DNA of 54,043 bases from a virus, in the IMG/VR virus record IMGVR_UViG_3300046836_000171, positions 1-54,043 of that record; one strand, given 5' to 3'. Below are positions 4,978-19,783 of the stretch, one piece after another. Positions within the stretch are counted from its first letter, which is position 1. The number at the start of each line of letters is the position of its first letter. The notes under the pieces were generated by a model that was not told the origin of the DNA, searched no databases, and saw nothing but the letters and a program-made list of their open reading frames with translations. The position numbers were made by a program, and so were the translations under genes.

Positions 4978-5910
4978 ATGACGGGCTTCCAAACCCAGGT
5001 GAACTATCAGCAAGCGCCGGCGGTCCCCGGCGACTTCGCCACCACGAACCCGCGCGCCACCGTGATCGCCGGCCCCGGCGCGCTGGTGGCGGGACCGTCC
5101 GGCGTCACGGTCGGCCGCTTCGGCTGGGTCGATCCGGCCACGCAAACGCTGGTGTCGAACGGCGGCGCAGGCAAGCCGAACGGCTTCGTCGGCAACCACC
5201 ACAACGCGCTGATCACCACCTACCTCGCCGAGACGTCGCTGGTGATCCCCGGCGGTTTCGAGCTGTTCCTGTGGGCCTACGGCGACTTCTGGATGAAGAA
5301 CGACTCTTCGACCGAAGCGCTGCCCGGCCAGAAGATTTTCGCCTCGCAGACCACCGGCCAAGCCTCGCAGCTCGCCGCGGCGGGTACGCAGCCGAGCGGC
5401 GGCGCGTCCGTCACCGGCTCGATTGCCGCCTCGACCGCCAGCGTCACCGGCTCGATCGCCAACGATATCCTGACCGTCACCGTGGTGGGCTCGGGCGCGA
5501 TCGTGGTCGGCGGAACGCTCAGCGGCTCGGGCGTCGCCACCGGGACGATGGTCACGGCGCAGCTCACCGGCACGCCGGGCGGCATCGGGACCTATCTGGT
5601 GTCGATCCCCGAGCAGACGGTGGCCTCGACCACCATCAGCGAGACCTACGGGACGCTGACCGTCTCGGCGGTCGGCTCGGGCGCCCTTTCCGTGGGCGAC
5701 GTCATCAGCGGCTCCGGTGTCACCGCCGGGACCTACATCACGGCGCTGGGGACCGGCGCGGGCGGGACGGGGACCTACATCGTCACCCCGAACACCGTCG
5801 TCTCCTCGACCACGATCACCGCCAACGCGACGGTGGAGACCGATTGGTACGTCGGCAGCTTCGCCGCACCGGGCGAGCTGATGAAGCTTACGCATCGAGC
5901 CCTGGGGTAA
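4978..5910 (+). CDS. Capsid cement/decoration-type protein with inserted domains
   Basis: A 310-residue structural protein lying between protease and capsid. Residues 1-115 ([16 protein letters not shown], then GRFGWVDP) resemble phage structural cement proteins (Gp24-like), and the last 25 residues ([19 protein letters not shown]) look like the end of the same domain. Residues about 140-282 between them hold two copies of a beta-rich module also found in four other virion proteins here. The host domain thus seems split by the insert. AAGGA lies upstream of the ATG. The cement assignment is by resemblance and position. Confidence 0.78.
5443..5646 (+). repeat. Recurrent virion domain, copy 1
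   Basis: Encodes the TGSIA...[11 protein letters not shown]...[10 protein letters not shown]...GGIGTYLV...TISE module inside the cement-type protein. It is about 60-68 residues long and followed directly by copy 2. Confidence 0.75.
5647..5823 (+). repeat. Recurrent virion domain, copy 2
   Basis: Encodes [19 protein letters not shown], then [19 protein letters not shown] and a TTITA end. It is in tandem with copy 1 and closest to the sheath copy at 10411. Confidence 0.8.
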
Positions 5911-5916
5911 CAGCAC

Positions 5917-7074
5917 ATGCTGCGTCGTAGCGCCGAACTCACGGCCGTGATGGAAGAGGCGGGGATCGTCTTCGATTCCGCCGTGGACTTCCTGCCCCGC
6001 ACCCGGCTCGACAAGCCGGTCACGGAAATGACCAGCCTTGGGCCGGTCGAAACCAGCTTCGGCGGGATCGACATGAGCGCGGCCACGCGCCTCGCCCAGG
6101 ACGCCGGGCTGGCGTTCGATGCGCCGAACTCGCCGGCCAGCCCGCAGGCGGGTCTGGTCACGGTCGCGAACGCCGGCATCCCCAGCTTCCTGACGATGTA
6201 TGTCGATCCGAAGCTGATCGAAGTCCTCTACTCGCCGCTGAAGGCGGCCATGCTCTACGGCGAAGCCCGCAAGGGCGACTGGCTGATGGAAACGGCCATG
6301 TTCGCGATGATCGAGTCGACGGGCGAGGTTTCGTCCTACGGCGACTTCGCCACGAACGGCCGCGCCGGCGCGAACGCCCAATGGCCGCAACGGCAAGCCT
6401 ACCTCTATCAGGTGTTCACCGAGTGGGGCGAGCGCGAGCTGGAGCGCATGGGGCTGGCCCGCGTCGATTGGGCCGCGCGCCTCAACATCAGCTCGGCGCT
6501 GACGCTGAACCGCTTCCAGAACACCAGCTACTTCTTCGGGATCAACGGGCTCCAGAACTACGGCGCCCTGAACGATCCCAGCCTGCCGGCCCTGCTGACG
6601 CCGACCACCAAGACGGCCGGCGGCACGAGCTGGTCGGTCGCGCTGCCGACCGAAATCCTCGCGGACTTCCAGAAGGTGTTCGCGCAGCTCCAGATTCAGA
6701 CCGGCTCCAACCTGGAGCTGGACACGCCGATGACCGCTGTCGTCCACTCGGTCAGCGAGGTCTATCTGGCGAACACCAACAGCTTCGGCCTCACCGCCGA
6801 AGGCATGATCAAGAAGGTGTTCCCCAACCTGAAGATCATGCAGGCGCCACAGCTCGGCTATCCGACCGGCGCGCCGACGCCGACGCTCTTCACGATGCAG
6901 ATGTGGGTCGATGAGCTGGAGGGCCAGCGGACGATCGAGTGCAGCTTCAATGAGAAGATGCGCGCGCACCGGATCGTGCAGGACACTTCGTCTTGGCGCC
7001 AGAAGAAGACTCAGGGCACCTGGGGGGCCATCGTCTATCGCCCGGCGTGCGTGTCGGGCCTCACCGGGATTTAA
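5917..7074 (+). CDS. Major capsid protein (DUF2184 type)
   Basis: A 385-residue protein matching the DUF2184 major capsid family of myoviruses with DUF3383 sheaths. Recognisable stretches are IPSFLTMYVDPKLIEVLYSP near residue 88, WGERELERMGLARVDWAARL near 170, the conserved NTSYFFGINGLQNYGALNDP near 205, and TQGTWGAIVYRP near the C-terminus. It forms the icosahedral shell and is probably processed by the upstream protease. It follows the cement gene by 6 bp. The length is normal for the family. Confidence 0.92.
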   Translation: MLRRSAELTAVMEEAGIVFDSAVDFLPRTRLDKPVTEMTSLGPVETSFGGIDMSAATRLAQDAGLAFDAPNSPASPQAGLVTVANAGIPSFLTMYVDPKLIEVLYSPLKAAMLYGEARKGDWLMETAMFAMIESTGEVSSYGDFATNGRAGANAQWPQRQAYLYQVFTEWGERELERMGLARVDWAARLNISSALTLNRFQNTSYFFGINGLQNYGALNDPSLPALLTPTTKTAGGTSWSVALPTEILADFQKVFAQLQIQTGSNLELDTPMTAVVHSVSEVYLANTNSFGLTAEGMIKKVFPNLKIMQAPQLGYPTGAPTPTLFTMQMWVDELEGQRTIECSFNEKMRAHRIVQDTSSWRQKKTQGTWGAIVYRPACVSGLTGI

Positions 7075-7078
7075 GCCA

Positions 7079-7642
7079 TTGGCCGAAAGCGCCCAAAAGA
7101 CCGCCGACGCGCTCGGAGCCGCCGGCGCGGCTGCGGCTGCTGCGGCCGCCGGTCCCGAGCGGCCCACCATCACGGAACCCGCCAAGGCAAAGGCCGCCAA
7201 GGCCGACCGCGCGGGGGGCGTGGTCTATGTCGGCTGCAAGCTGCCGAACGGCGTTGTCCTCGATCTGGATCGGTACGTCCCGATCAACGATCGCGGCGAC
7301 GTGCGCCTGGAGAAGGGCAAGCTGCCGCCCGTCACGCTGAAGGGCTGGGCGTTCCGCGTCGGCATCGACGCCCCGCTGGTCAGCGCCGGCGGCTACGTCT
7401 TCACGCCGGTCCCCGGCGAGTTCTGGGAAGAGTGGATCAAGCGCAACGGCGAGGGCGATCTGATCGCCTCGCAGATGATCATCTTCGGCGAGACGATGGA
7501 CGCAGCCCAGGGCAAGGCGAGCGAGCGCGGCGAGCTGGTCCGCGTCTTCCGCGGCGCGATCCCGTCGAAGGCCGATGGCGTCGCGACCGCGACGGACGAT
7601 CGCGGCAACCCGGTGCTGGCGAGCGCTAGCGCCCTCATCTGA
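7079..7642 (+). CDS. Conserved head-region protein, unknown function
   Basis: A 187-residue protein read from TTG at 7079, 4 bp after the capsid stop. No ATG or GTG is closer and the frame upstream runs inside the capsid gene. The first 45 residues are Ala/Lys-rich and disordered-looking. The rest, from GGVVYVGCKLPNGVVLDLDR to VPGEFWEEWIKRNGEGDLI, is a compact beta-rich domain. This looks like the small conserved protein found between the capsid and the DUF4054 neck gene in related phages. It is probably a minor structural or assembly factor. Confidence 0.72.
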   Translation: MAESAQKTADALGAAGAAAAAAAAGPERPTITEPAKAKAAKADRAGGVVYVGCKLPNGVVLDLDRYVPINDRGDVRLEKGKLPPVTLKGWAFRVGIDAPLVSAGGYVFTPVPGEFWEEWIKRNGEGDLIASQMIIFGETMDAAQGKASERGELVRVFRGAIPSKADGVATATDDRGNPVLASASALI

Positions 7643-7652
7643 GGGGCGGCGC

Positions 7653-8105
7653 GTGACCATCGTCGCCTTCAACTTTCAGACCTGGGCGGCGCGCTTCCCC
7701 GAGTTCATCCCGGCCGTGACCGAGCCGATGGCCGACCGCTTCTTCGCGGAGGCGTGTCTCTACATCAACAATACCGACTCCTCGCCGATCAGCGCCGACC
7801 CGCCGAACGGGCCGCGCGCGATGATCCTCGATCTGGCGACCGCCCACGTCGCGAAGCTCTACAAGGGGACGAACACGGACCCGGCCAGCGGGCTCGTGGG
7901 CCGGCTCAGCCAAGCAGCCGAGGGCTCGGTGAACGTCAGCACCGAGCTGGAGCCCGGCGCGGAGCCGTCGCGCGCGTGGTGGGTCCAGACGCCCTATGGC
8001 TTCAGCGTGTGGCAGGCGACCGCGCCCTACCGGATCGGCATCTACATTCCGAACCCGCCGGACACCTTCGGCGCGGGACCGCTGGGCTTCCTCCGGGGCT
8101 GGTGA
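7653..8105 (+). CDS. Head-tail connector (DUF4054)
   Basis: A 150-residue neck protein. The pattern FNFQTWAARFPEFIPAV at the N-terminus, a helical middle with LDLATAHVAKLY, and QTPYGFSVWQATAPYRIG near the C-terminus fit the DUF4054 adaptor family, which docks below the portal. The GTG at 7653 lies 11 bp after the previous stop. Its place as the first of four or five neck genes supports the role. Confidence 0.85.
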   Translation: MTIVAFNFQTWAARFPEFIPAVTEPMADRFFAEACLYINNTDSSPISADPPNGPRAMILDLATAHVAKLYKGTNTDPASGLVGRLSQAAEGSVNVSTELEPGAEPSRAWWVQTPYGFSVWQATAPYRIGIYIPNPPDTFGAGPLGFLRGW

Positions 8106-8108
8106 TCC

Positions 8109-8567
8109 GTGGCTGACGTTCCATTCGAGGGCGGGGAGAAGCTGACGGCGGCGCTGGAGCGCATCAGCCGCGCCCTGGGCGGTAGCCCCAAGGTTCGCGT
8201 CGGCCTGCTTGAGGGCGCGACCTATCCCAACGGGACCCCCGTTGCGCTGGTTGCGGCCGTGCAGGAATACGGCGCGCCCTCCCGCGGCATCCCTCCCCGC
8301 CCGGCGATCCGCGGCATGGTGGCGAAGGAGGGGCCGGGCTGGGGCGACGCCCTGATGGAAGCCCTGAAGGCGAGCGACTACGACGCCGGCCGGGCGCTGG
8401 AGCTGATGGGCGAGGGGATCAAGGGCCAGTGGCAGCAGGCGATCCGCGACTTCTGGGGCGTCCCGCTGGCGCCCGCCACGATCGCGCGCAAGGGCTTCGA
8501 CAAACAGCTCATCGATACGGGCCACATGATCAACAGCGTCGATTCGGAGGTCATCAGTGGCCGCTGA
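8109..8567 (+). CDS. Neck/tail completion protein (gp10-like)
   Basis: A 152-residue protein resembling HK97-gp10-like or virion morphogenesis neck proteins. VRVGLLEGATYPNG leads into VAAVQEYGAPSRGIPPRPAIRG, the hallmark loop of that group, and the C-terminus ends in an LIDTGHMINSV box. It joins the connector to the tail. The GTG start lies 3 bp after the previous stop, and the end overlaps the next gene. Confidence 0.83.
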   Translation: MADVPFEGGEKLTAALERISRALGGSPKVRVGLLEGATYPNGTPVALVAAVQEYGAPSRGIPPRPAIRGMVAKEGPGWGDALMEALKASDYDAGRALELMGEGIKGQWQQAIRDFWGVPLAPATIARKGFDKQLIDTGHMINSVDSEVISGR

Positions 8568-8820
8568 TCCGCGCGATCATCCGGCGGTGCGCGCCGAGCG
8601 CGACGGGATCGTCAACCCGATCGGCCAGCTCCGATGCCCGGCGTGCGGCGCGTGGTTCCTCATGCGCTCGACGTGGCTGCGCCACCGGGAGGTCGAGCTT
8701 CCGAGCTTCCGCGCCTGGGCCGAAGGTGCGAACCGGCATTGGGAGAAGACCCGCAACCGGCCGGTGATCGTCAGCCGCGATGAGATTCACGCCCGCGAGC
8801 TGCGCGTGGTGACGCCGTGA
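8557..8820 (+). CDS. Small zinc-finger-like protein in the neck operon
   Basis: An 87-residue protein of unknown family. RCPACGAWFLMRSTWLRHRE (about residues 25-45) gives a C-x2-C and a His twelve residues later, so a zinc site is possible. The GTG at 8557 has a GGAGG six bases upstream and overlaps the preceding gene. The stop overlaps the next GTG. Tight coupling on both sides argues that it is real. A nucleic-acid-binding finger among neck genes is odd, and I cannot say what it does. Confidence 0.68.
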   Translation: MAADPRDHPAVRAERDGIVNPIGQLRCPACGAWFLMRSTWLRHREVELPSFRAWAEGANRHWEKTRNRPVIVSRDEIHARELRVVTP

Positions 8821-9188
8821 ACCTGCGCTCGATCGCCAACAGCGCGACGCGCGCGGTGAACCCGAACGTGACCGGCAGCGTGATGCAGTCCACCGGCTAC
8901 ACCACCGGGCCGGACGGGTCGCGCACGCCAACCTACGACACCGTGACCGGCGTCAGCTTCCAAACCCAACCGCTCAGCACCGCCGACCTCTTGCAGCTCG
9001 ACGCGCTCAACATTCAGGGCGTCACCCGCAAGGTCTACGCGAACATGCAGATCAAGGGCGTCGAGCGGGCGGCCGGGACCGGCGGCGATCTGCTGGTGTT
9101 CAGCGGCGAGACGTGGCTGGCGAGCGCGATCCTTGAGCCGTTCGACCAATCGGGCTGGTGCAGCGTCGGCGTGACGCAACAGGCATGA
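8817..9188 (+). CDS. Neck protein, possible head-closure factor
   Basis: A 123-residue protein of a conserved neck family: NLRSIANSATRAVNPNV at the start, LQLDALNIQGVTRKVYANMQ in the middle, and GGDLLVFSGETWLASAILEPFDQSGWC near the end. In phages of this type it sits between the gp10-like protein and the tail terminator, where a stopper or head-closure protein is expected. That role is inferred from order. It has coupled overlaps at both ends. Confidence 0.75.
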   Translation: MNLRSIANSATRAVNPNVTGSVMQSTGYTTGPDGSRTPTYDTVTGVSFQTQPLSTADLLQLDALNIQGVTRKVYANMQIKGVERAAGTGGDLLVFSGETWLASAILEPFDQSGWCSVGVTQQA

Positions 9189-9925
9189 GCGCCTACCTCG
9201 ACTTCACCGAAGCCCAGGCGCTCACCGTGCTGCGCAGCTTCCTGCTGAGCATCCTTCCGCCAATCGAGGTTGTCCGCGGCCAGATCAACCGGGTCGGCGA
9301 GCCCACCGCCGGCGACTTCGTGGTGATGACGCCGATCCTGCGCACGCGCCTCGAGACGAACACGCCGACCTACATGGACGCAGTTTTCACCGGCTCGATC
9401 GCGGCGACCACGCTCACGGTCTCGGCGGTGGCGCACGGCTCGATCCTTGTCGGCGCACCCGTCGCGCCCGCGCCCGGCGGCCACTCGGTCGCCGATGAGA
9501 CCTACGTCGTCGCCCAGCTCACCGGCTCCGTGCCTGGAGACGTCGGGACCTACCGGGTGAGCGTCAGCCAGACGGTCGCCAGCGGCGGGCTGCTGGCCGG
9601 CGTGGTCGAGACGTTGCAGCCGACGCAGCTCACCGTCCAGCTCGACGTCCACGGCCCGGCCAGCGGCGACAACGCGCAGATCATCGCGACGCTGTTTCGA
9701 GACCCGATCGCCTGTCAGGCTTTCCGCGCTTCCGGCTTTCCGACGCAACCGCTCTACGCCTCCGACCCTGCGCAACGGCCCTTCCAAAACGCCCAGGATC
9801 AGATCGAATATCGATGGGGCGTCGATGCGGTGATTCAGGTAAACCCCGCCGTCTCGACTCTCCAGCAGTTCGCGGCTAGCCTCGCCGCAACGCTTGTCAG
9901 CGTCGATGCGACCTACCCGCCTTAA
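9185..9925 (+). CDS. Tail terminator (gp12-like) with inserted domain
   Basis: A 246-residue protein. Residues 1-60 (ALTVLRSFLLSILPPIEVVRGQINRV, then GDFVVMTP) and residues about 145-246 (LTVQLDVHGPASGDNAQIIATLFRD) match the neck terminator that caps the top of the tail tube. Between them, about residues 68-140, sits copy 3 of the recurrent domain, so the terminator fold is interrupted by an insertion. The ATG at 9185 forms an ATGA overlap with the previous stop, which decides the start. Confidence 0.82.
   Translation: MSAYLDFTEAQALTVLRSFLLSILPPIEVVRGQINRVGEPTAGDFVVMTPILRTRLETNTPTYMDAVFTGSIAATTLTVSAVAHGSILVGAPVAPAPGGHSVADETYVVAQLTGSVPGDVGTYRVSVSQTVASGGLLAGVVETLQPTQLTVQLDVHGPASGDNAQIIATLFRDPIACQAFRASGFPTQPLYASDPAQRPFQNAQDQIEYRWGVDAVIQVNPAVSTLQQFAASLAATLVSVDATYPP
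9388..9597 (+). repeat. Recurrent virion domain, copy 3
   Basis: Encodes TGSIAATTLTVSAVAHGSI, a diverged middle, then VVAQLTGSVPGDVGTYRVSV inside the terminator. It keeps the start and end signatures but has a different loop where other copies have ISGSGV. Confidence 0.7.
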
Positions 9926-9937
9926 GGGGGCTCAAGG

Positions 9938-11656
9938 ATGAGTGTTCAGCTCGCGATCCCGGCTTCGCAGCTTGTCGCTGTCAACCCCGGCGTCATCACG
10001 GCCGCCGGCGCGGCCGCCGATCTGTTGGGGCTGTTCCTGACCGAGTCGACGCGGGTTCCGATCGGGGCCGTCAACAGCTTCCCCACGCAAAGCGCCGTGG
10101 CCGCCTACTTCGGCGGCAACTCGGCCGAAGCGGCCAAGGCCGCCGTCTACTTCCTGGGCTTCGACAACTCGGCCCTGAAGCCGGCGGCGATGCTCTTCGC
10201 GCAATGCCCCTACGCGGGGCCGGTGGCCGCCTACCTGCGCGGCGGCAACATCAGCGGGCTGACGCTGACCCAACTCCAGGCGATCAGCGGCGTCATCACC
10301 CTGACGATCGACGGGCATCCCTTTACGTCCGGCAACATCAACCTGTCGGGCGCGACGTCCTTCTCGGATGCGGCCGCCACCATTCAGACCGCGCTCGGCG
10401 CGTCCGACGCGACCGTCACGGGCTCGATCGCCGCGACCACCCTCACCGTGAGCGCGGTCGGCGCTGGCGCGCTGGCGGTGGGACAGGTGATCAGCGGCTC
10501 GGGCATCACGGTCGGGACCCGGATCACCGCCCTGGGCTCGGGCTCGGGCGGGACCGGGACCTACACGGTCGCCCCCTCGCAGAGCGCCAGCTCGACCAGC
10601 ATCACCGCCGGCGCGGTCGGCGTCAGCTTCGACAGTCAGTCCGGCGCGTTCGTGATCACCGCCGGGACGCCCGACGACACCGGCTCGATCACCTTCGCCA
10701 GCGGCTCAGCGGCCGCCGGCCTCATGCTGACGTCGGCGACGGGCGCCGTCCTCAGCCAAGGCGCTGATCAGGTGGGCTCCGACGTCACGCCGGCCGAGTT
10801 CATGGACGGGATCGTGGACGTGACGACCAATTGGGCGACGCTGGTCACGGTGTTCGCCCCGATCACCGCCGACAAGGTGGCGTTCGCCGATTGGGTCAAC
10901 GCCCAGAACAACCGCTTCGTCTACGCCATGTGGGACACCGACATTACCGCGACGGAGTCCAACGACTCGGCGTCGGCCGGCGCGCAGATCATCGCCAAGG
11001 GCGACTCGGGGACGATCCCGATCTACGAGCCCAGCGACCTGAACCACGCGGCGTTCGTCGCCGGCTACTTCGCGTCGATCGACTTCACCCAGCCGAACGG
11101 CCGCGTGACGCTCGCCTACCGCAAGCAGCAAGGACTCACGGTCGGCGTCACCAACCAGACGACCGCCGCCCAGCTCTTGCTGAACGGTTACAACTTTTAT
11201 GGCGAATACTCGACGTCGAACGCCGACTTCAACCTGTTCCAGAACGGCTCGATCACCGGCCCGTTCGCCTGGGCGGACAGCTACGCGAACCAGATTTGGC
11301 TGAACGCCCAGCTCCAGCTCGCGCTGCTGACGCTCCTGCAACAGACCTTCTCGATCCCGTACAATCAGGAGGGCTACAACCTGATCGCCGCGGCCGCCGC
11401 GGACCCGATCAACGCCGCCCTCGCCTTCGGCGCCATCCGCGCCGGCGTGACGCTCAGCCAAGCCGAAATCGCGGAAGTGAACAACGCCGCCGGGCTCGAC
11501 GTCGCCACGACGCTGCAAAATCGCGGCTGGTATCTCCAGATCAAGGATGCGGACCCGAGCGTTCGCATCGCGCGGGGATCGCCGCCGATCACGTTCTGGT
11601 ACATGGACGGCCAGAGCGTCCAGAAGATCACTCTGGACTCGGTCGAAATCCAGTAG
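9938..11656 (+). CDS. Tail sheath protein (DUF3383)
   Basis: A 572-residue protein matching the DUF3383 sheath family and therefore the strongest evidence for a contractile tail. It opens with LVAVNPGVITAAGAAADLLGLFL and the GYFG-like AAYFGGNSAEAAKAAVYF box, and continues with VTTNWATLVTVFAP, a RVTLAYRKQQGL segment, and a C-terminus ending in DGQSVQKITLDSVEIQ. Copy 4 of the recurrent domain lies at about residues 159-226, likely on the outer face. CAAGG precedes the ATG. It is longer than usual because of the insert. Confidence 0.92.
   Translation: MSVQLAIPASQLVAVNPGVITAAGAAADLLGLFLTESTRVPIGAVNSFPTQSAVAAYFGGNSAEAAKAAVYFLGFDNSALKPAAMLFAQCPYAGPVAAYLRGGNISGLTLTQLQAISGVITLTIDGHPFTSGNINLSGATSFSDAAATIQTALGASDATVTGSIAATTLTVSAVGAGALAVGQVISGSGITVGTRITALGSGSGGTGTYTVAPSQSASSTSITAGAVGVSFDSQSGAFVITAGTPDDTGSITFASGSAAAGLMLTSATGAVLSQGADQVGSDVTPAEFMDGIVDVTTNWATLVTVFAPITADKVAFADWVNAQNNRFVYAMWDTDITATESNDSASAGAQIIAKGDSGTIPIYEPSDLNHAAFVAGYFASIDFTQPNGRVTLAYRKQQGLTVGVTNQTTAAQLLLNGYNFYGEYSTSNADFNLFQNGSITGPFAWADSYANQIWLNAQLQLALLTLLQQTFSIPYNQEGYNLIAAAAADPINAALAFGAIRAGVTLSQAEIAEVNNAAGLDVATTLQNRGWYLQIKDADPSVRIARGSPPITFWYMDGQSVQKITLDSVEIQ
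10411..10614 (+). repeat. Recurrent virion domain, copy 4
   Basis: Encodes [20 protein letters not shown], then VISGSGITVGTRITALGSG, GGTGTYTV and TSITAG inside the sheath protein. This is the most regular copy in the genome. Confidence 0.82.
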
Positions 11657-11671
11657 GGGCGGGCTGACAGC

Positions 11672-12112
11672 ATGGCGAACAATCGGACCCTCACGGCGGC
11701 GGACGTGCTGATCACCCTCAGCGTCGCTGAGGTCTTCGGCGCGCCGTTCACGCTGCACGGCTTCGCGACCGATGACGTCTACGACATGCCGGAAATCGAC
11801 GTCGCCGAGACCGCGATGGGCGTCGATGGGCGCCTGTCGGCCGGCTTCGTCTTCCGGCCGGTGACGCAAGCCTACATGCTCCAGGCGGACAGCCTCTCGA
11901 TCGACCAGTTCGAAACGATCTACGCCCAGCAGCAACAGAATCGGTCGGTCTACGCCTTCACCGGAATCACCACTCTCCTAGCGGTCGGCAAGCAGTACGC
12001 CATGAACCGCGGCTTCCTGCGCAACTACAGCCCGGCCGCGGCCGGCAAGCGCATCCTCCAGCCGCGGCGCTTCGGGATCGAGTGGGAATCGGTGCTTCCT
12101 CAACCCGTCTGA
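11672..12112 (+). CDS. Tail tube protein candidate
   Basis: A 146-residue protein directly after the sheath, where the tube subunit is expected. It is mostly beta with a SADVLITLSV-like opening (ADVLITLSVAEVFG), a FVFRPVTQAYMLQADS strand pair and a basic C-terminus (GKRILQPRRFGIEW). Its length fits a single-domain tube subunit. It is followed by a strong 12-bp hairpin before the chaperone gene. I rely on order and fold class rather than a diagnostic motif. Confidence 0.78.
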   Translation: MANNRTLTAADVLITLSVAEVFGAPFTLHGFATDDVYDMPEIDVAETAMGVDGRLSAGFVFRPVTQAYMLQADSLSIDQFETIYAQQQQNRSVYAFTGITTLLAVGKQYAMNRGFLRNYSPAAAGKRILQPRRFGIEWESVLPQPV

Positions 12113-12115
12113 ACC

Positions 12116-12146
12116 CTGGGTCAAATCTGACCCGGATTTGACCCAG
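12116..12146 (+). promoter_or_regulatory. 12-bp perfect hairpin between tube and chaperone genes
   Basis: Arms 12116-12127 and 12135-12146 are perfectly complementary (CTGGGTCAAATC and GATTTGACCCAG) with a 7-nt loop. No T-run follows, so it is not a classic terminator. It could lower read-through, act as an RNase III site or stabilise the tube message. A third related stretch, AGATTTGAGG, follows directly. Confidence 0.75.
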
Positions 12147-12162
12147 ATTTGAGGTAGCGCGC

Positions 12163-12645
12163 ATGGGCCGCAAGGTCGCTGAGGTCATCATCCCGGCCGA
12201 CGATCCCGGCCGCGACAAGGGCAAGAAGTTCCGCATCACCGAAATGCCCGCGCTCCAGGCTGAGCGCTGGGCGATCCGCGCGATCACCGCGATCGGCAAG
12301 GCGGGGATCGAGGTCCCCGACGAAGCCCTCGACCTTGGAATGGGCGCGCTGGCCGGCGTGGCCCTGCGCGCGATCGTCCAGATCGAGTTCGATGACGCGA
12401 TGCCGCTGCTGGCCGAAATGATGGCGTGCGTTCAGCGCGACATGGGGAACGGCGTGGTCCGCGCGCTGACGGAAGACGATATCGAAGAGGTCCCCACGAT
12501 CCTCAAGCTGCGCGGGGAGACGATCGCGCTGCATGTGGGTTTTTCGATGGCCGACGTCATGTCGAGACTCCGGTCTGGATCGGCGTCGGCCTTACCAGCG
12601 AACTCATCCGACCCCGCAACGTCCCCCTCAACATCGCAACCGTGA
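12163..12645 (+). CDS. Tail assembly chaperone, short form
   Basis: A 160-residue zero-frame product, analogous to lambda gpG. It is mainly helical (ERWAIRAITAIGKAGIE, then LLAEMMACVQRDMGN) and binds the tape measure during tail assembly in that family. From about residue 128 the frame enters Ser/Ala-rich sequence with no family look, because the true downstream coding runs in the -1 frame (see the fusion entry and the slippery site at 12537). Its position just before the tape measure is diagnostic. Confidence 0.82.
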   Translation: MGRKVAEVIIPADDPGRDKGKKFRITEMPALQAERWAIRAITAIGKAGIEVPDEALDLGMGALAGVALRAIVQIEFDDAMPLLAEMMACVQRDMGNGVVRALTEDDIEEVPTILKLRGETIALHVGFSMADVMSRLRSGSASALPANSSDPATSPSTSQP

Positions 12646-12779
12646 TCCAGGGGCGGCTTGCGACGCTGGCGGAACTTGATTCCGTCTACGGGGTGGAAGA
12701 CCTTCACGACATGCTAGAGCTGCTGATGGTCGAGGCGGTGAATCGCAAGATCATCGACCGGGACGCGGAAGAGGGCTGA
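12163..12779 (+). CDS. Tail assembly chaperone, -1 frameshift fusion
   Basis: The long product, analogous to lambda gpGT. Reading slips back one base at GGGTTTT (12537-12543) and continues to 12779, giving about 205 residues: 127 shared, then GRRHVETPVWIGVG through LIRPRNVPLNIATVIQGRLA and MLELLMVEAVNRKIID. That C-terminal part is clearly protein-like and has no start of its own with a good ribosome site. The frames, the heptamer and a downstream stem all agree. The share of frameshifting cannot be read from sequence. Confidence 0.85.
12537..12591 (+). promoter_or_regulatory. Programmed -1 ribosomal frameshift signal
   Basis: The heptamer G GGT TTT (12537-12543) is a canonical X XXY YYZ site in register with the zero frame. 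Five bases later begins a perfect 8-bp stem, GGCCGACG at 12549-12556 with CGTCGGCC at 12584-12591, around a 27-nt loop. Slipping by -1 enters exactly the open frame that ends at 12779. Confidence 0.88.
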
Positions 12780-12788
12780 GGGACCGGG

Positions 12789-14498
12789 GTGGCCGACGTC
12801 GTAGACGCCTTCGTTGTCACGCTGGGGCTGAAGGACGATGATTTCGTTCGTCACGCCCGCATCGTGCTTGAGCTCCAAAAGAAGATGCGCGAGGAAGCGC
12901 ATCAGCAGACCAAGGAGACCCAGGAAAACGCGGCGAAGTCGGTCGCCAGCTTCGCCTCGATCAAGCGCGAAGTGCTGGGGCTAACCAGCCTGATCCTGGG
13001 CGGGATGGGGATCACCGAGTTCGTCCAGAAGACGATCGCGCTCACCGCCAACGTCGGCCGCCTCAGCACGATCCTGGGCCAATCGACCGAACAGATCAGC
13101 GCGTGGCAGGGCGCGATCCGCGCGATGGGCGGGACGTCCGAAGAGGCGTCGGGCGATCTGATGAAGATCGTCCAGGCGTTCGAAGATATCCAGCTCACCG
13201 GCAACAGCCCGATGATCCCGGTGCTGCGCCAGCTCGGGTTCGGGCTCGATGACCTGAAGGACCCGACCGCCTTCCTGCTGAAGCTGAGCGACCGCCTCTC
13301 GGCCATGCCGGACAAGCGCGAGGCGTTCAACCTGGGCTCGCGGCTGGGGCTCAGCCCCGAAATGGTCAACCTGCTGATCCAGGGACGCAAGGTCACGCAG
13401 GAATATCTCGACGCAGCCGCCAAGGCGTACCCGATCCACCAGCGCGACGCGGCCGCCGCGATCGAGGCGCAGAAGCAATTCAGCCTGCTGCGGGACTCAT
13501 GGCAACGGCTCGGGAACACCGTGCTGGTGGAGCTGGCGCCCTCGCTGATCAAGCTGGCGGACGGGCTTGAGGGCATCGCGCTCTTCCTGAACCAGAATCC
13601 GGCGCTGGCGATGACCGGCTTTGGGGTGGCGATGTTCTTCGCCGCGTCGGGCGCGTTCCGTCTCGCCGCCGGCTTGGCGGCCGCCGGCGCGGCCAACATC
13701 GCCACGATCGCGCGCATCCTCGCCTTGCTGGCTGGCGTGCCTGGGGCCGCCGTGGCCGGCGGCGCGGCGCTCAGCCTGATCCCCGGCAGGGCGCGCGGAT
13801 CGCTGGCGGGCGCGGGCGCGGGCCGCTCGATCGATGAACAGATCGCGGCGCTGCAAAAGCAGCTCGCCGACCCCGACGCCCCCAAAGCCTACGTTCAGCG
13901 CCGGCTGGCCGAGCTTCTCGCCAAGCGCGCCGTTCTCGGCGGCAAGGCCGACTTCGCGACGCCGATCGGCGCGGGGGCCGTTCCCGCCCAGCTCGCCGCC
14001 GGCGGGTCGGTTCCGGGTCAGGTGGCCGCGTTCTTCCAGGCGCACGGCGCGAGCGCGGCCGGCGCGGCCGGGATCGGCGCGGGCGTCGCCGCCGAAGGCG
14101 GGAGCGAGTTCGCGCGCGACCAGTATGACAGCCGCGGACGCTACGCCTACGGCGTCTTCCAACTGCGCGGCGCGCTCCAGAAGAAGCTGTTCGCGCAATA
14201 CGGGCCGAACGCCAACCTCGCCCAGCAGCTTCAGTTCGTGCTGGGCCAGCTCAAGACTGATCCCAGCCTGGGGGGCGCGTCGATCTTCGGCGCCACGAAC
14301 CCGGTCGCCGCGCTTCAGACCTTCATCGCGCAGTTCTTGCGCCCGGGGCGCGGCGCGGCCGGCGATCTGGAGCGGGGCGCGCGGGCGCTGCATATCGGGA
14401 CATTGATCATTCACGCCGGCGCGGGCGCTGACGGGCGGCAGATCGCCCGCGACCTTCAGGCCGAGCTGATCGCCCAGGGCAACAGGGGGATGAGCTGA
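12789..14498 (+). CDS. Tape measure protein with C-terminal tail-lysozyme domain
   Basis: A 569-residue protein directly after the chaperones. Residues 1-260 are long helices with coiled-coil character. Residues about 270-345 are hydrophobic and contain two or three membrane-like segments. Residues about 411-515 resemble the phage tail lysozyme (Phage_lysozyme2) domain: VAAFFQAHGASAAGAAGI, AAEGGSEF, YAYGVFQLRG and LAQQLQFVLGQL. The tape length sets tail length, so the tail should be short, and the lysozyme part would open peptidoglycan at entry. The GTG start has GAGGGA upstream. Confidence 0.87.
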   Translation: MADVVDAFVVTLGLKDDDFVRHARIVLELQKKMREEAHQQTKETQENAAKSVASFASIKREVLGLTSLILGGMGITEFVQKTIALTANVGRLSTILGQSTEQISAWQGAIRAMGGTSEEASGDLMKIVQAFEDIQLTGNSPMIPVLRQLGFGLDDLKDPTAFLLKLSDRLSAMPDKREAFNLGSRLGLSPEMVNLLIQGRKVTQEYLDAAAKAYPIHQRDAAAAIEAQKQFSLLRDSWQRLGNTVLVELAPSLIKLADGLEGIALFLNQNPALAMTGFGVAMFFAASGAFRLAAGLAAAGAANIATIARILALLAGVPGAAVAGGAALSLIPGRARGSLAGAGAGRSIDEQIAALQKQLADPDAPKAYVQRRLAELLAKRAVLGGKADFATPIGAGAVPAQLAAGGSVPGQVAAFFQAHGASAAGAAGIGAGVAAEGGSEFARDQYDSRGRYAYGVFQLRGALQKKLFAQYGPNANLAQQLQFVLGQLKTDPSLGGASIFGATNPVAALQTFIAQFLRPGRGAAGDLERGARALHIGTLIIHAGAGADGRQIARDLQAELIAQGNRGMS

Positions 14499-15400
14499 TG
14501 CCGCTCTATCCGATCGTTCCCGATCTGCCCGGTGTCCCGCCGGTCGCGCGCTCGGCGGTCAACGCGCTCGGGCTTCTCGCCAGCGGCCAAGGCACGATCC
14601 GCGACACCACGCTGACCGTCAGCCAGCTTGTCGGCGCAGCGCTCAACCCCGGCCAGTTCCTCAGCGGGGCCGGGCTGGCGTCGGGCGTGCAGATCGTCGC
14701 TCAGCTCGCGGGCGTCACTGGCGGCCTTGGCGACTACCGGCTCAGCCAAGCGGCCAACATCGCCGGGCTGGCGTTCGCCACGTCGCACTTCTTCGCCCCG
14801 ACGCTGGCGACGTTCGACGGGATCAGCTCGGCGCTCATCGGCGGCGCGGCCGGCGATCGGCCTCAGTGGGGCGTCTTCGATGACGCCGGCGAGCTGGTGA
14901 TCGCGCCTGACAGCGTGGTAGATTTCGACCTGCGCGCCGAACAGCGCCTCGCGATCTTCCCGATCGAGAAGGGGTCCTTCGGGTCCTACAACAAGGTGGC
15001 GATGCCTTTCGAGGCGCGCATGAAGATGAACAAGGCCGGGACCGAGTCCGACCGGACGGACTTCCTGAACGCCTGCGACGCCGCGCTGAAGAGCCTGAAG
15101 CTCTACACAGCGGTGACGCCCGAAGTGACCTATGACAACGCCAGCGTGGAACACTACGACTACCGGCGCACCAGCGAGAACGGCGTGCAGCTCATCACCG
15201 TCGAGCTGTGGCTTCAGGAAGTCCGCGTCGCCGCGTCGCCCACCTTCAGCAATACCAAGACGCCCCAGGGGCAGGACGCCCAGCAGGACGGCGCGGTGCA
15301 GGCGCAGACGCCGACCACCCAGCAGGCCAGCCAAGCCAGCGCCGCGCTCGACGCCAACGGGCCGCTGGGCGGCGTGGGGGGACCACCGGGCGATGACTGA
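14498..15400 (+). CDS. Baseplate/tail-tip protein with inserted domain
   Basis: A 300-residue protein just after the tape measure, in TGATG overlap with it. Residues about 130-255 (FDDAGELVIAPDSVVDFDLRAE, RLAIFPIEKGSFGSYNKV, LWLQEVRVAA) look like the conserved baseplate protein of this tail type, possibly the hub-tube adaptor. Copy 5 of the recurrent domain, diverged, occupies about residues 31-96. The last 45 residues are Gln/Ala/Gly-rich and flexible. Confidence 0.75.
   Translation: MPLYPIVPDLPGVPPVARSAVNALGLLASGQGTIRDTTLTVSQLVGAALNPGQFLSGAGLASGVQIVAQLAGVTGGLGDYRLSQAANIAGLAFATSHFFAPTLATFDGISSALIGGAAGDRPQWGVFDDAGELVIAPDSVVDFDLRAEQRLAIFPIEKGSFGSYNKVAMPFEARMKMNKAGTESDRTDFLNACDAALKSLKLYTAVTPEVTYDNASVEHYDYRRTSENGVQLITVELWLQEVRVAASPTFSNTKTPQGQDAQQDGAVQAQTPTTQQASQASAALDANGPLGGVGGPPGDD
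14588..14785 (+). repeat. Recurrent virion domain, copy 5 (diverged)
   Basis: Encodes GTIRDTTLTVSQLVGAALNPG, LSGAGLASGVQIVAQLAG and GGLGDYRLSQ. The signature positions are kept although most residues differ from the sheath copy. Confidence 0.65.
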
Positions 15401-15743
15401 AACCGAGCGCGGCTTCCTGCTGACGTCGATGAGCGACCGGGACGTGGCGAAGGCACTCAGGCGCTCGCTGGCATGGGTCCAGCGCGAGCGCGCGGTGCTG
15501 GCGGGCATGGAGCCCCAGCCGATCCAGCGGCGTCCCAGGCGGCCCGCTATGTGCAACGGGGGCCACGATGGATTGTCCAGCGCGCCCCAGGCGCTTCAGG
15601 CGCCCCCCAGGTACACAGTACCCCCAAGGGTCGCGCGCTGGGCTCTGTGGTTCCTGGGGGCCGGCTGGCCGGTGGCTGAGGTCAGCTACCTCTTCGACCA
15701 GACGCCCGCCGACCTTGAAGCGTTGCGGGAGCGCGCCGCCTGA
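15393..15743 (+). CDS. Small HTH-like protein in the baseplate operon
   Basis: A 116-residue protein of unknown role. MSDRDVAKALRRSLAWVQRERAVL looks like a helix-turn-helix, and a second such pattern, GWPVAEVSYLFDQTPADLEAL, lies near the C-terminus. Both are common in small phage proteins of tail operons. The ATG at 15393 overlaps the previous gene by 8 bp, and the stop overlaps the next gene in a TGATG junction, which fixes both ends. Confidence 0.68.
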   Translation: MTETERGFLLTSMSDRDVAKALRRSLAWVQRERAVLAGMEPQPIQRRPRRPAMCNGGHDGLSSAPQALQAPPRYTVPPRVARWALWFLGAGWPVAEVSYLFDQTPADLEALRERAA

Positions 15744-16072
15744 TGCTGATCGTCCCGCTCCAGCCCGTCGTCGCTCAGACCCTCTCGATCGCGCTCGGCA
15801 ACCAGCCGTGTCAGCTCCGGGTCTACCAGAACGCCGCCGGGCTCTTCGTTGACCTGTATGTCAACAATGCCCTGATCATCGGCGGCGTCATCGCGCTCAA
15901 CGGGACGCGGATCGTGCGCGACGTCTACCTGGGCTTCGCGGGCGACCTCTTCTTCGCCGATATGTTCGCCACCCCGACGCAGCCGGGCGTCGATCCCACC
16001 GGCGGCGCGCAGCTCGGCGTCCGCTGGCTGCTGTTCTACTTGGAAGCATCAGAAATCGAGGGGGACGTCTGA
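15743..16072 (+). CDS. Baseplate plug protein
   Basis: A 109-residue protein matching the phage baseplate plug family: LIVPLQPVVAQTLSIALGNQ at the N-terminus, VYQNAAGLFVDLYVNNALIIGG in the middle and LGVRWLLFYLEASEIE at the end. The family closes the distal tube near the hub. It sits between the small HTH-like protein and the hub, as in related myoviruses. A large imperfect hairpin follows its stop. Confidence 0.85.
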   Translation: MLIVPLQPVVAQTLSIALGNQPCQLRVYQNAAGLFVDLYVNNALIIGGVIALNGTRIVRDVYLGFAGDLFFADMFATPTQPGVDPTGGAQLGVRWLLFYLEASEIEGDV

Positions 16073-16075
16073 TGA

Positions 16076-16125
16076 GAACGAAATCGGAACTCGCCCCCTG
16101 TAGATTTTTGGTTCGCGATTCGTTC
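16076..16125 (+). promoter_or_regulatory. Long imperfect hairpin between plug and hub genes
   Basis: The 15-nt arms 16076-16090 (GAACGAAATCGGAAC) and 16111-16125 (GTTCGCGATTCGTTC) pair with only two single-base bulges around a 20-nt loop that contains a T5 run. It fills almost all of the 64-bp gap between 16072 and 16137. It may be an mRNA processing or attenuation site. It has no T-run after the stem, so it is not a standard terminator. Confidence 0.7.
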
Positions 16126-16136
16126 AGGGCGCGCTG

Positions 16137-17033
16137 ATGGCGTTCGTCCGGCGCAGGATCGACCTGAAGTTCCAGCTCGGGACCGGCTCATTCGGCGACA
16201 GCGGGATGAACACGGTCAACGTCACCGGGCTGCGCGTTCACGCCACCATCACCAAGGCCGGCGGGCTCGGCATGGCGACCGCGCATGTGGACGTCTACGG
16301 GCTCGACCCGAAGATCGCCAACCAGATCAGCACGCTCGGAAAGGTGCTGACCGCCGGGCGCAACAATACGATCACGATCAGCGCCGGCGACGACGATGCG
16401 GGGATGGCGGTCTGCTACATCGGCACGATCGACATGGCATGGAGCGACTACACCAACGCGCCCGACGCCAAGGTGCAGATCAGCGCCCACATGGGGCTGC
16501 TGGAGAACCTGAAGCCGATCGCGCCGACCAGCTTCAAGGGCTCGGCCGACGTCGCGACCATCCTTCAGACCCTCGCCGGGCAGATGGGATTCACGTTCGA
16601 GAACAACGGCGTCAGCGTGCAGCTCAGCAACCCCTACCTCTCGGGGACCGCGCGCGAGCAAGCCTATGCGGCCGCGGCCGCGGCGAACATCAACATCGTG
16701 ATGGACGATCAGCCCGGCGGCGTGAACACGCTGGCGATCTGGCCGAAGGACGGGCAACGGCAGGGGAACCCGCCGGCGATCGGGCCGGACACCGGGCTGG
16801 TCTCCTACCCGACGTGGATCGAGAACGGCGTGGTGCTGAAGTCGATCTTCAACCCGAAGATCATCGTCGGCGGGACTGTCGCGATCACCAGCTCGGTCCC
16901 CAACGCGAACGGGACGTGGCAAGTGTTCAACCTCCAGCACGATATCGAGTCGGAGTCGCCGGACGGGCCATGGTTCTCGACGGTGAGCTGCAACGTGCTG
17001 GGGCATCAGACGCCGCTGGCCGGGGGGCAGTAG
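16137..17033 (+). CDS. Baseplate hub protein (gp44/GpP-like)
   Basis: A 298-residue protein resembling the Mu gp44 / late-control-D hub. It opens with FVRRRIDLKFQLGTGSFGDSG, has NVTGLRVHATITKAGG strands, a DVATILQTLAGQMGFTFENN box typical of hub domain II, and ends in a beta domain (WQVFNLQHDIESESPDGPW). It forms the trimeric hub that holds the spike. Its neighbours, plug upstream and spike downstream, support this. Confidence 0.84.
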   Translation: MAFVRRRIDLKFQLGTGSFGDSGMNTVNVTGLRVHATITKAGGLGMATAHVDVYGLDPKIANQISTLGKVLTAGRNNTITISAGDDDAGMAVCYIGTIDMAWSDYTNAPDAKVQISAHMGLLENLKPIAPTSFKGSADVATILQTLAGQMGFTFENNGVSVQLSNPYLSGTAREQAYAAAAAANINIVMDDQPGGVNTLAIWPKDGQRQGNPPAIGPDTGLVSYPTWIENGVVLKSIFNPKIIVGGTVAITSSVPNANGTWQVFNLQHDIESESPDGPWFSTVSCNVLGHQTPLAGGQ

Positions 17034-17636
17034 ATGGCCGGCTCGGATCAGGACTATCTCGGGCTGGCGCGCCCGGCGGACATGGGCTCGCACTTCAACG
17101 CGATCGCCTTCCTGATCAAGGCGATGACCGGCCAGCTCTGGACCGCGACGCTGGTCAAGGTGGTCGCCGTGACCGGCGGCGGCGGCGCGGTGGCGCTGGC
17201 CGGGACCGTGGACGTGCAGCCCTTGGTCAACCAGCTCGACGGGCAGGATCAGGCGACGCCGCATGGGACGATCTTCGGCGTCCCCTACTTCCGCGCGCAG
17301 GGTGGCGCGAACGCGATCATCCTCGACCCGCTGGTGGGCGACCTGGGGATCGCCGTCTTCGCCGATCACGACATTTCGAGCGTGGTCGCCAACAAGGGCG
17401 CCGCCAACCCCGGATCGCGGCGGCGCTTCAGCCCGTCCGATGCGCTCTATCTGGGCGGCTTCCTGAACGCGGTCCCGACCCAATACCTCGCCTTCGCCGG
17501 CGGGATCGACGTGGAGTCGCCCGGCGTGGCGTTCTCGGGCAATGTCACGGTCGGAAGCGGCTGGTCGGGGAGCTTCCCGACCGGGACCGGCCAGATCGTC
17601 ACCGTCGTGGCCGGCATCATCACGGACGTAACATGA
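17034..17636 (+). CDS. Membrane-puncturing spike (Gp138-like)
   Basis: A 200-residue protein. Residues about 38-125 fit the Gp138 N-terminal OB domain: ATLVKVVAVTGGGGAVALAG, DVQPLVNQLDGQ, then GVPYFRAQGGANAIILDPLVGDLGI and VFADHDIS. The C-terminal 70 residues are Gly/Val-rich and probably form the beta-helical needle. The ATG directly follows the hub stop. It would pierce the outer membrane when the sheath contracts. Confidence 0.87.
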   Translation: MAGSDQDYLGLARPADMGSHFNAIAFLIKAMTGQLWTATLVKVVAVTGGGGAVALAGTVDVQPLVNQLDGQDQATPHGTIFGVPYFRAQGGANAIILDPLVGDLGIAVFADHDISSVVANKGAANPGSRRRFSPSDALYLGGFLNAVPTQYLAFAGGIDVESPGVAFSGNVTVGSGWSGSFPTGTGQIVTVVAGIITDVT

Positions 17637-17998
17637 GCTTCAACGCCGAGTTCTTCACCAACCTCGCCGCGCAGATCGAGAACACCGACTCGTGCGCCGA
17701 GCTGCAAACGCTGGTCGATCGGGCGTTCGCCCAGCTCGCCGACGTCAACGCCTTCATCGCCACCCAGCAGGCGCTTCTGGCGCCGCTGGCCTCTCTGCTG
17801 ACCGCGCCGACCGACCTCAGCGAGGTCATCACATGGATTACCGGGACGATTACGGTGTTCACGAATATGTATGCGCCGTATGCGAAGTACGCGACGCAGC
17901 TCACCGAGCTGGTCGCCGCGGTCGCCAGCCTGACGACGGCGATTAACGACGCGGCCGCCAGAATCGGCGACTGTAGCATCACCATCCCGCCGATCTGA
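17633..17998 (+). CDS. Small helical baseplate-operon protein
   Basis: A 121-residue protein of unknown family with long amphipathic helices (ELQTLVDRAFAQLADVNAFI, then a TELVAAVASLTTAI stretch). The ATG at 17633 forms an ATGA overlap with the spike stop. It lies between spike and wedge genes, so it is probably a minor baseplate or assembly protein. I see no signal peptide, catalytic motif or cysteine cluster. Confidence 0.7.
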   Translation: MSFNAEFFTNLAAQIENTDSCAELQTLVDRAFAQLADVNAFIATQQALLAPLASLLTAPTDLSEVITWITGTITVFTNMYAPYAKYATQLTELVAAVASLTTAINDAAARIGDCSITIPPI

Positions 17999-18007
17999 GG
18001 CACCCCC

Positions 18008-18358
18008 GTGGACACGCTGTTGCTCGATCAGGCGACGTGGGACCTGACGCTCGACGCGAGCGGGAACATGGCGGTCGCCAGCAACCCCTACTCGATCGCC
18101 CAGGATGCCGGCTCGGCGCTCAAGCTCTTCAGGGGCGAACTCTGGTATGACACCACCAAGGGCATCCCCTACTTCGAACAAGTCCTGGGCTCGCAGCCCC
18201 CGGTCGCGTTCCTGAAGGCGAAGTTCGTCACCGCGGCGCTCAGCGTTCCCGAGACCGTCCACGCGGCGGCCTTCATCGACGCGATCACCGCGCGTAAGGT
18301 CAACGGCCAAGTTCAGGTGACTACGAATAGCGGGATCGTCCTCCCGGTGGGGCTCTAG
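18008..18358 (+). CDS. Baseplate wedge protein (gp46/gp25-like)
   Basis: A 116-residue protein resembling Mu gp46 and the T4 gp25 / XkdS group: SGNMAVASNPYSIAQDAGSAL, then FRGELWYDTTKGIPYFEQVL with the GIPY-type EPR-like loop. It joins the sheath base to the wedge. It starts at GTG and lies immediately before the J-like wedge protein, the usual pairing. Confidence 0.85.
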   Translation: MDTLLLDQATWDLTLDASGNMAVASNPYSIAQDAGSALKLFRGELWYDTTKGIPYFEQVLGSQPPVAFLKAKFVTAALSVPETVHAAAFIDAITARKVNGQVQVTTNSGIVLPVGL

Positions 18359-18361
18359 CGC

Positions 18362-19783
18362 ATGACCACGAACGTCCCCGTCCCGGCCTTCGGCCCTATC
18401 GGCTTCGTCTCGCCGGCCGAGTCCGCGATCCTCGCCGGCGTGCTGGCCGACCTTCAGGCGGCGTTCGGCGGCAACCTGAACCCGAACCTTGAGACGCCCC
18501 AGGGGCAGATCGCCAGCTCGCTGACCGCGATCATCGGCGACTTCTACGGGCTCTTCACGTTCTACACCCAGCAGGTTGACCCGGCCTTCGCCAGCGGCCG
18601 GATGCAGGACGCCATCGCGCGCATCTACTTCCTGACGCGCAAGCCCGCCCAGGCGACGGTTGTCCAGGCGCTATGCACCGGGCTGGCGAACACCCCGATC
18701 CCCACCGGCTCGATCGCCAAGGCGAGCGACGGGAACCTCTACGAATGCACGACCGGCGGGGTGATCCCGCTTGGCGGCTCGATCACGCTCCCGTTCGCCT
18801 GCGTCACCGCCGGCCCGATCCCCTGCCCGGCCAACAGCCTGACCGTGATCTATCAGGCGATTCCCGGCTGGGACACGATCAACAATCCCTCAGACGGGGT
18901 GATCGGCGAGAACATCGAGACCCGCGAGGATTTCGAGTTTCGCCGCGAGGCGTCGGTGGCGGCGAACTCAGTGGGCGCGATGGGCGCGGTGATCGGCGCG
19001 GTGGCGGCGGTCGCCGGCGTGCTGGACTTCTTCGGCTACAACAATGGGACCGGCTCGCCGGTGACGATCGGCGCGGTGACGATCCCGGCCCATACGATCT
19101 TCGTGTGCGTCGAGGGCGGCGCGCAGATCGATATCGCGCAGGCGATCTTGTCGAAGAAGGCTCCAGGCTGCGGGACCTACGGCAATACGGCCGTCACCGC
19201 CTATGACAGCAACCCGCTCTATTCGGCCCCGATCCCCTACACGATCAACTTCGAAGTCCCGACGCCGACGCCGATCCTCTTCGCCGTCACGCTGGCGAAC
19301 AACATCAACGTGCCTGCCGACGCGCAGCAGCTCGTAGCCGGCGCGATCCTGAACGCCTTCTCAGGGTCGGACGGCGGCCCGCGGGCGCGGATCGGCTCGA
19401 CCCTCTTCGCCAGCCGCTATTACACCGGCATTGCGGCGCTAGGCTCGTGGGTCAACATCGTCTCGATCCTGATCGGCGCGCCGACCTCGCCGGGCGCCAG
19501 CTTCACCGCCTCGATCGCCTCGACGGTGATGACCGTCACCGCGGTGGCGTCGGGGACGCTGGCGGTGGGGCAGACCGTCGTCGGGGCCGGGGTCTCGCCA
19601 GGGACCATCATAGCCTCGCTCGGGACCGGGAGCGGCGGCACCGGGACCTACAACCTCAACCTTCCCCAGACGGTTTCCAGCGAGGCGATGACCAGTATCC
19701 TGCCGGCGCTCAACTCGCTCACGCTGGGGATCGATCAGGTTCCGACGATCAACGTCGCCGACGTGTCGCTAGCGCTCGTCTGA
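18362..19783 (+). CDS. Baseplate J-like wedge protein with inserted domain
   Basis: A 473-residue protein of the baseplate J (Mu gp47, T4 gp6) family. The early stretch [24 protein letters not shown] and [25 protein letters not shown], the middle [18 protein letters not shown] and the [12 protein letters not shown] box are typical. Copy 6 of the recurrent domain lies at about residues 381-448, close to the C-terminus. Wedge subunits surround the hub and pass the contraction signal. Confidence 0.87.
19501..19707 (+). repeat. Recurrent virion domain, copy 6
   Basis: Encodes [40 protein letters not shown] and [19 protein letters not shown] inside the J-like wedge protein. Confidence 0.8.

Follow-up and report, generated by a model that had tools for sequence, protein, structure and literature searches.

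We found that one small module, predicted to be a β-barrel, recurs in five virion proteins of a phage and in many further phage proteins. With a probability that we put at roughly 0.6, the data reflect one old barrel family that sits at recurrent virion loops and within itself, is kept by selection, and projects from the particle surface to make weak contacts. The window studied here is the whole 54,043-nucleotide stretch of viral DNA (IMG/VR record IMGVR_UViG_3300046836_000171). In the mechanism we propose, the first and last strands of the barrel would probably lie side by side and, because they adjoin, the module could be inserted in-frame without breaking the fold of its host. Over long evolution the barrel would have entered permissive loops of many virion protein families in this way, and also a loop of another copy, giving a barrel-in-barrel unit such as the one suggested for the cement protein of the window. 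Copies kept by purifying selection would most likely project from capsid protrusions, neck, sheath and baseplate as many weak contact points; the role we favour is low-affinity adhesion or particle retention, and the close alternative is contacts that stabilise neighbouring subunits.

The five host proteins of the window are all encoded on the plus strand and were named by Pfam and PHROGs. The cement or minor head protein (4978–5910; PF22758/PF23982, phrog_2122) carries two modules that appear to be nested, namely an inner module, which is the first copy (5434–5646; HMM E 3.5e-18; barrel residues 153–223), and the body of an outer module, which is the second copy and lacks a first strand of its own (5647–5832; HMM E 2.6e-20). 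The neck or tail terminator (9158–9925; PF23961, phrog_1876) has its module at 9383–9610 (HMM E 6e-17), a site that corresponds to a gap at residue 68/69 of Pantoea phage PA-1. In the DUF3383 tail sheath (9938–11656; PF11863, phrog_205), a homologue of E217 gp31, the module lies at 10406–10624 (HMM E 1.1e-23), at PA-1 residue 148, where PA-1 is empty. A baseplate-region protein (14498–15400; phrog_1830), one phage homologue of which is annotated as 'tail tube initiator-like', contains a diverged module near its N terminus (14585–14794; HMM E 6.8e-13). The last copy, at 19502–19705 (HMM E 6.5e-25), precedes the final strands of the baseplate J-like wedge (18362–19783; PF04865, phrog_6), at PA-1 residue 388.

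When the sheath module was used to query the 54-kb record, it matched six places only. Taken by themselves, the copies lie at 5443–5640 and 5647–5832 (cement), about 9383–9592 (terminator), 10415–10609 (sheath), about 14585–14770 (baseplate protein) and 19502–19693 (J). To reduce circularity, an independent profile was made from modules of other contigs, with the window copies left out. Among 587 open reading frames (ORFs) this profile recovered exactly the six copies (E 6.5e-25 to 6.8e-13), as had been claimed in an earlier, sequence-only reading, and the best E value of the same profile among 11,740 shuffled ORFs was 0.18. The other copies were 34–67% identical to the sheath copy at the protein level, and DNA identity in the best ungapped family was 66–75% over 137 nt. 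The conserved positions can be written as GxGVxxGTxITxxGTGxGGxGTY. The baseplate copy, which had been singled out as diverged, was the most diverged of the six and gave the weakest E value.

We found that the module has been inserted into pre-existing folds in the sheath, terminator, J-like wedge and cement proteins, each of which has homologues that lack the module but keep the flanking fold unbroken. The sheath aligned to 167 phage records, 121 of which covered at least 80% of it, and in the best 30 of the 167 the matches spanned about 490 residues and left a gap at the module. Direct alignment with phage PA-1, whose gene order is the same as that of the window, revealed clean gaps at the sheath, terminator and J modules, with host sequence resuming on both sides. 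Four cement relatives of about 160 amino acids (L098, L102, L105 and L106) were without the module, and the same C-terminal segment resumed in them. The phage relatives of the phrog_1830 protein began to align only at about residue 122; at its N terminus the protein is about 76 residues longer than phrog_1830, a difference that the module accounts for, suggesting that the module is likely to be an insertion there as well. The claim that the host fold resumes after each in-frame insertion was thus confirmed by empty relatives for four of the five proteins, and for the baseplate protein it leans on the extra residues. Furthermore, the insertion loop within a host family was usually fixed. In PA-1 numbering the site was position 148 in 17 module-bearing sheaths, position 68/69 in all 19 module-bearing terminators fetched (one of which had a second module at position 26) and position 132 in seven cement proteins. 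In J it was mostly position 388, and additional sites lay at 345 and 237.

The module was confidently predicted to be an independently folding, charge-poor β-barrel of about 65 residues. Modelled alone it reached a pLDDT of 94.5, with strands at 4–22, 30–33, 40–45 and 53–71, in keeping with the discrete β-rich module first proposed. Among the viral predicted structures in BFVD it matched segments within unrelated proteins, and the majority of the top matches had an rmsd of 0.4–1.2 Å. The alternative that the segments are intrinsic to each host family, and alike only as simple T/G/S-rich β-sequence, would suit a module in which 60% of residues are G, S, T or A and which BLAST low-complexity filters probably mask. 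We looked for this and found it contradicted by the relatives without the segment; the specific conserved positions, the lack of any comparable score among the shuffled ORFs and a predicted fold common to modules in unrelated proteins, often with rmsd below 1 Å, likewise stand against it. We consider it very improbable, and unrelated folds are not what the predictions show.

The top PDB match to the barrel was chain 1 of 8eci, a capsid entry of Arthrobacter phage Bridgette (Foldseek E 0.013, TM 0.68), which also ranked first with VIA (Z 7.5, 2.2 Å, 67 residues, 34% identity), a Z below 8 being only suggestive. The best solved match comes from a phage capsid entry, in which it is presumably the cement protein of Bridgette, but it is a separate chain of 124 residues, whereas the module is an insert in larger proteins. 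Next came barrels of domain II of IF2, EF-Tu and eEFSec, of Uba1 and of F1-ATPase. As Foldseek of the barrel alone against the PDB gave nothing at E ≤ 0.001 and the VIA Z stayed below 8, fold kinship is not certain. Sequence searches found no solved structure, and 8eci chain 1 was not matched at E ≤ 1 when the A3 profile was run against PDB sequences. Translation-protein barrels such as EF-Tu/IF2 domain II and the F1-ATPase N-terminal barrel share the general arrangement over about 70 residues at 2.4–3.1 Å, but with only 4–17% identity and Z of 5–7.5, so the likeness is probably one of common arrangement, with no functional implication.

The module had been compared in concept to Ig-like inserts. 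This comparison held for its accessory distribution: Ig-like virion inserts, such as the accessory domains of sheaths (PMC9230969), are likewise small β-domains in many unrelated virion proteins, probably facing outwards, with suggested weak adhesion and exchange between phages. It found no support in the sequence or in the fold matches listed. In the five window proteins no Pfam Ig or Big family exceeded its gathering cut-off; Big_15, at E 0.23, was the single Ig-type match. No Ig fold was seen among the structural matches listed, a list that does not amount to exclusion, and the predicted module is not recognisably Ig-like. It differs from those inserts in its matches to EF-Tu-domain-II-like and Bridgette barrels and in its apparent self-nesting.

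The arrangement of the two cement copies was more complex than a simple tandem. A strand, VTGSIAAST, lies upstream of the first module, and the second copy lacks it; the HMM match to the second copy starts at profile position 8. The predicted β-strand and the barrel alignments assign the 12 residues encoded at 5398–5433 on the plus strand to the second copy, as its detached first strand. In the cement model this prefix was a strand at residues 143–162 with pLDDT 93–98. The inner barrel (residues 153–223) aligned alone to domain II of EF-Tu/eEF1A over 69–70 residues, and the outer barrel aligned to 8eci chain 1 and EF-Tu barrels with 65–73 residues spread across 141/142 to 283/285, as judged by the first and last aligned residues. 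So few aligned residues over so long a span fit a chain that skips the inner barrel. The cement core aligned over its full chain with the insert skipped (Pam3 8hdt_G, Z 14.1; E217 8frs_f, Z 13.7; XM1 7kmx_a, Z 12.8). Together the models provide strong but indirect evidence that one barrel sits inside the other, with the chain of the outer barrel interrupted by the inner.

The same prefix arrangement was present in six further cement proteins and in four sheaths. Another cement protein (L113) had three starts in a row and then three bodies, two of them without the first strand, which by its sequence would be a double nesting; L113 and one of the six cement proteins, L116, belong to prophage-like loci in Herbaspirillum or Bosea. 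Scored across the cement and sheath families, with near-identical contigs merged by hand and a post hoc split into one-copy and multi-copy chains, the prefix strand was found in none of the 7 one-copy chains and in 9 of the 12 multi-copy chains (Fisher p 0.003). An attempt to judge nesting from the HMM start of the second copy alone was too noisy (Fisher p = 1) and was replaced by this prefix scoring. In the head closure Hc3 family, by comparison, modules formed true tandems with no prefix. Because the nested linkers of cement and sheath (24 protein letters) were alike, the double unit may have been transferred as a whole. We put forward tentatively, at slightly less than even odds, a broader proposal: that the barrel inserts into its own first loop, that composites formed in this way, two- or threefold 'Russian-doll' barrels, pass from one virion protein to another, and that tailed phages thereby have a general, for the most part undescribed, means of covering capsid, neck, sheath, baseplate and fibres with one and the same surface knob.

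The family extends far beyond the window. Scanning IMG/VR with the sheath module gave at least 600 matches, at least 308 of which encode relatives. Further loci were fetched from viral and bacterial genome collections and the profile was iterated, yielding 304 modules in 196 ORFs on 124 loci. With the modules masked, the host proteins fell into 55 groups with no detectable similarity to one another. The profile search suggested in the earlier reading thus recovered the same module in many phage proteins. The host names given by PHROGs included head closure Hc3, head-tail adaptor Ad3, head proteins, major and minor tail proteins, tail fibres, wedge and sheath. Every group named by PHROGs was virion structural, several groups had no name, and no non-structural host was found among the named ones. 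The hosts in BFVD included an HK97-type major capsid protein, a P22 gp10-type protein, fibres and the collagen-repeat proteins of the giant virus Indivirus. Copy number differed between relatives; six related phage or prophage records had nine, seven, seven, six, six and five copies. Two PHROGs profiles, phrog_21413 and phrog_38233, include the module at positions of about 398–465 and 554–623, but these families are unannotated or called 'tail fiber protein' and the module is not set out there as a domain. A tblastn search of phages and plasmids with the sheath module gave no match at E ≤ 1e-3, and the first cement copy at E ≤ 10 matched six records, mostly weakly; the null result is probably due to masking by the BLAST low-complexity filter.

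To place the spread in time, we compared module likeness within and between genomes. Likeness was 0.61 for modules in the same host family on different contigs, 0.48 for different ORFs of one contig and 0.51 for different hosts and contigs, in a set biased by the fetching of its loci with one query module. For this reason the comparison was redone on contigs fetched by sheath similarity, which gave 0.458 for the same host, 0.422 for the same contig and 0.404 for other pairs. Copies were not clearly more alike within than between genomes in either set, and the same-contig excess of 0.018 was reached in 22 of 1,000 permutations, so the within-genome signal was at most weak. For five of the six window copies, the nearest relative sat in the corresponding host protein of a different phage. 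The sheath copy and the second cement copy, described earlier as close, were 73% identical in amino acids, but this closeness does not mark recent copying, as their best matches in the same protein of other phages reached 78% and 75% and many unrelated modules tied with them at 70–73%. Recent spread inside the genome was rejected as the main process: beyond the slight within-genome excess, modules grouped by host protein more than by genome. Since modules had more in common with their counterparts at the equivalent site in other phages than with the rest of their own genome's modules, most of the spread is old.

Where it could be tested, purifying selection on the modules was strong. For close pairs from two head-tail connector families, neither of which occurs in the window, dN/dS was 0.068 in the modules, compared with 0.051 in the remainder of the host protein, with high dS. 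These data bear on a further explanation, in which the module is a nearly neutral or selfish passenger, DNA that codes for a well-tolerated barrel and spreads by recombination with no benefit to the phage. Variable copy number between relatives, self-insertion and the many unrelated hosts would all be expected of such an element. The dN/dS of about 0.07 argues against it, as do the restriction of named hosts to virion proteins, the only moderate DNA identity between copies (66–75% in the best ungapped family) and the tendency of modules to follow the host protein more than the genome, and we regard it as improbable. Rickettsia palindromic elements are in-frame mobile coding elements that recur in unrelated proteins, and the module resembles them in this recurring in-frame insertion. 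Unlike them, it is a folded, selected domain whose copies lack high DNA identity, and no palindromic ends were noticed.

A surface-projecting barrel held by selection, which remains our preferred reading, raises the question of what the copies do. The cement protein of E217, homologous to that of the window, forms surface trimers, and the E217 sheath has an extra domain A that is absent in pyocins (PMC10329688). Accessory sheath domains are positioned away from the tube (PMC9230969). By analogy with these trimers and this placement, outward display of the modules on the virion surface is likely. Weak binding to host or mucus glycans had been suggested as a possible function. The modules contain 3% charged (DEKR) and 4% aromatic residues with His (FWYH), against 13% and 10% in the host proteins, a composition that does not look typical of a classical lectin or sugar site and does not favour glycan binding. 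The frequency of fibres and fibre-like proteins among the hosts leads us to favour weak multivalent adhesion, with stabilisation a close second and a passive spacer also possible; we infer the adhesive role from this distribution.

Stabilisation is also the core of a rival explanation, in which the barrels act as clamps: those on adjacent cement, sheath or neck subunits would touch one another, or the subunit that follows, and so make the particle stronger. In its favour, the nearest solved match is from the Bridgette capsid entry, and Bridgette is reported to have dimeric cement proteins that bridge capsomeres (PMC13033339), although 8eci chain 1 is only presumed to be that protein. In addition, a cementing role in the sheath has been proposed for its extra domains (PMC9230969), and the nested pair sits in a capsid cement protein. 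The same module is, however, found in fibres, wedge, terminator and connectors, and such differing neighbours and symmetries are unexpected for a specific clamp. We consider clamping a possible but rather unlikely explanation.

Accessory-domain insertion in virions was already known. What sets this case apart is the barrel fold, which has no named family in the libraries searched, together with the number of host families and the self-nesting; a search of mostly freely accessible literature found no published description of the module. Descriptions of virion accessory domains usually deal with single proteins, and mostly call the domains Ig-like. In this case a single barrel family, for which Pfam yielded no model, is spread across almost all classes of exposed virion protein, with up to nine copies per phage record. 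The module may explain why such proteins are poorly annotated, because its sequence is of low complexity and BLAST filters probably mask it. The fixed loops suggest that sheath, cement, terminator and wedge proteins have sites which naturally tolerate insertion. With one domain in many positions, and with natural empty-site controls, the purpose of virion accessory domains becomes testable.

We found that the terminator at L019:3446-4522, a locus outside the window, carries an extra, second module in a different loop, at position 26 as numbered in PA-1, a Pantoea phage whose terminator lacks the module. Insertion is thus tolerated at more than one terminator loop. Seven modules were found on a single contig in a prophage-like locus of a Sulfuritalea MAG (L121), where several of them sit in successive head-tail genes in a layout that parallels that of the window. 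The sheath, cement and baseplate proteins of a 30 kb record, IMGVR_UViG_3300046678_000182, were 100% identical to those of the window, and this record is either the same or a near-identical phage assembled a second time, or the window's source record cut differently.

Five modules were arranged head-to-tail in tandem in a 2088-aa protein (L131:1913-8176) on a contig of Bacteroidota. Irregular arrays at L135:1256-2764 and L128:1013-4006 contained partial modules, which may be copies in decay or modules nested within one another in another way.

In BFVD, the set of viral predicted structures, A0A6J5SIT1, a major capsid protein of HK97 type from an uncultured phage, contains the module (60% identity, 0.4 Å). 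The same module was present in A0A1V0SCQ2 and A0A1V0SDM6 (54% and 36% identity, respectively), two proteins with collagen repeats from the giant virus Indivirus ILV1, suggesting that it is employed on fibrils of eukaryotic viruses or has been traded with phages.
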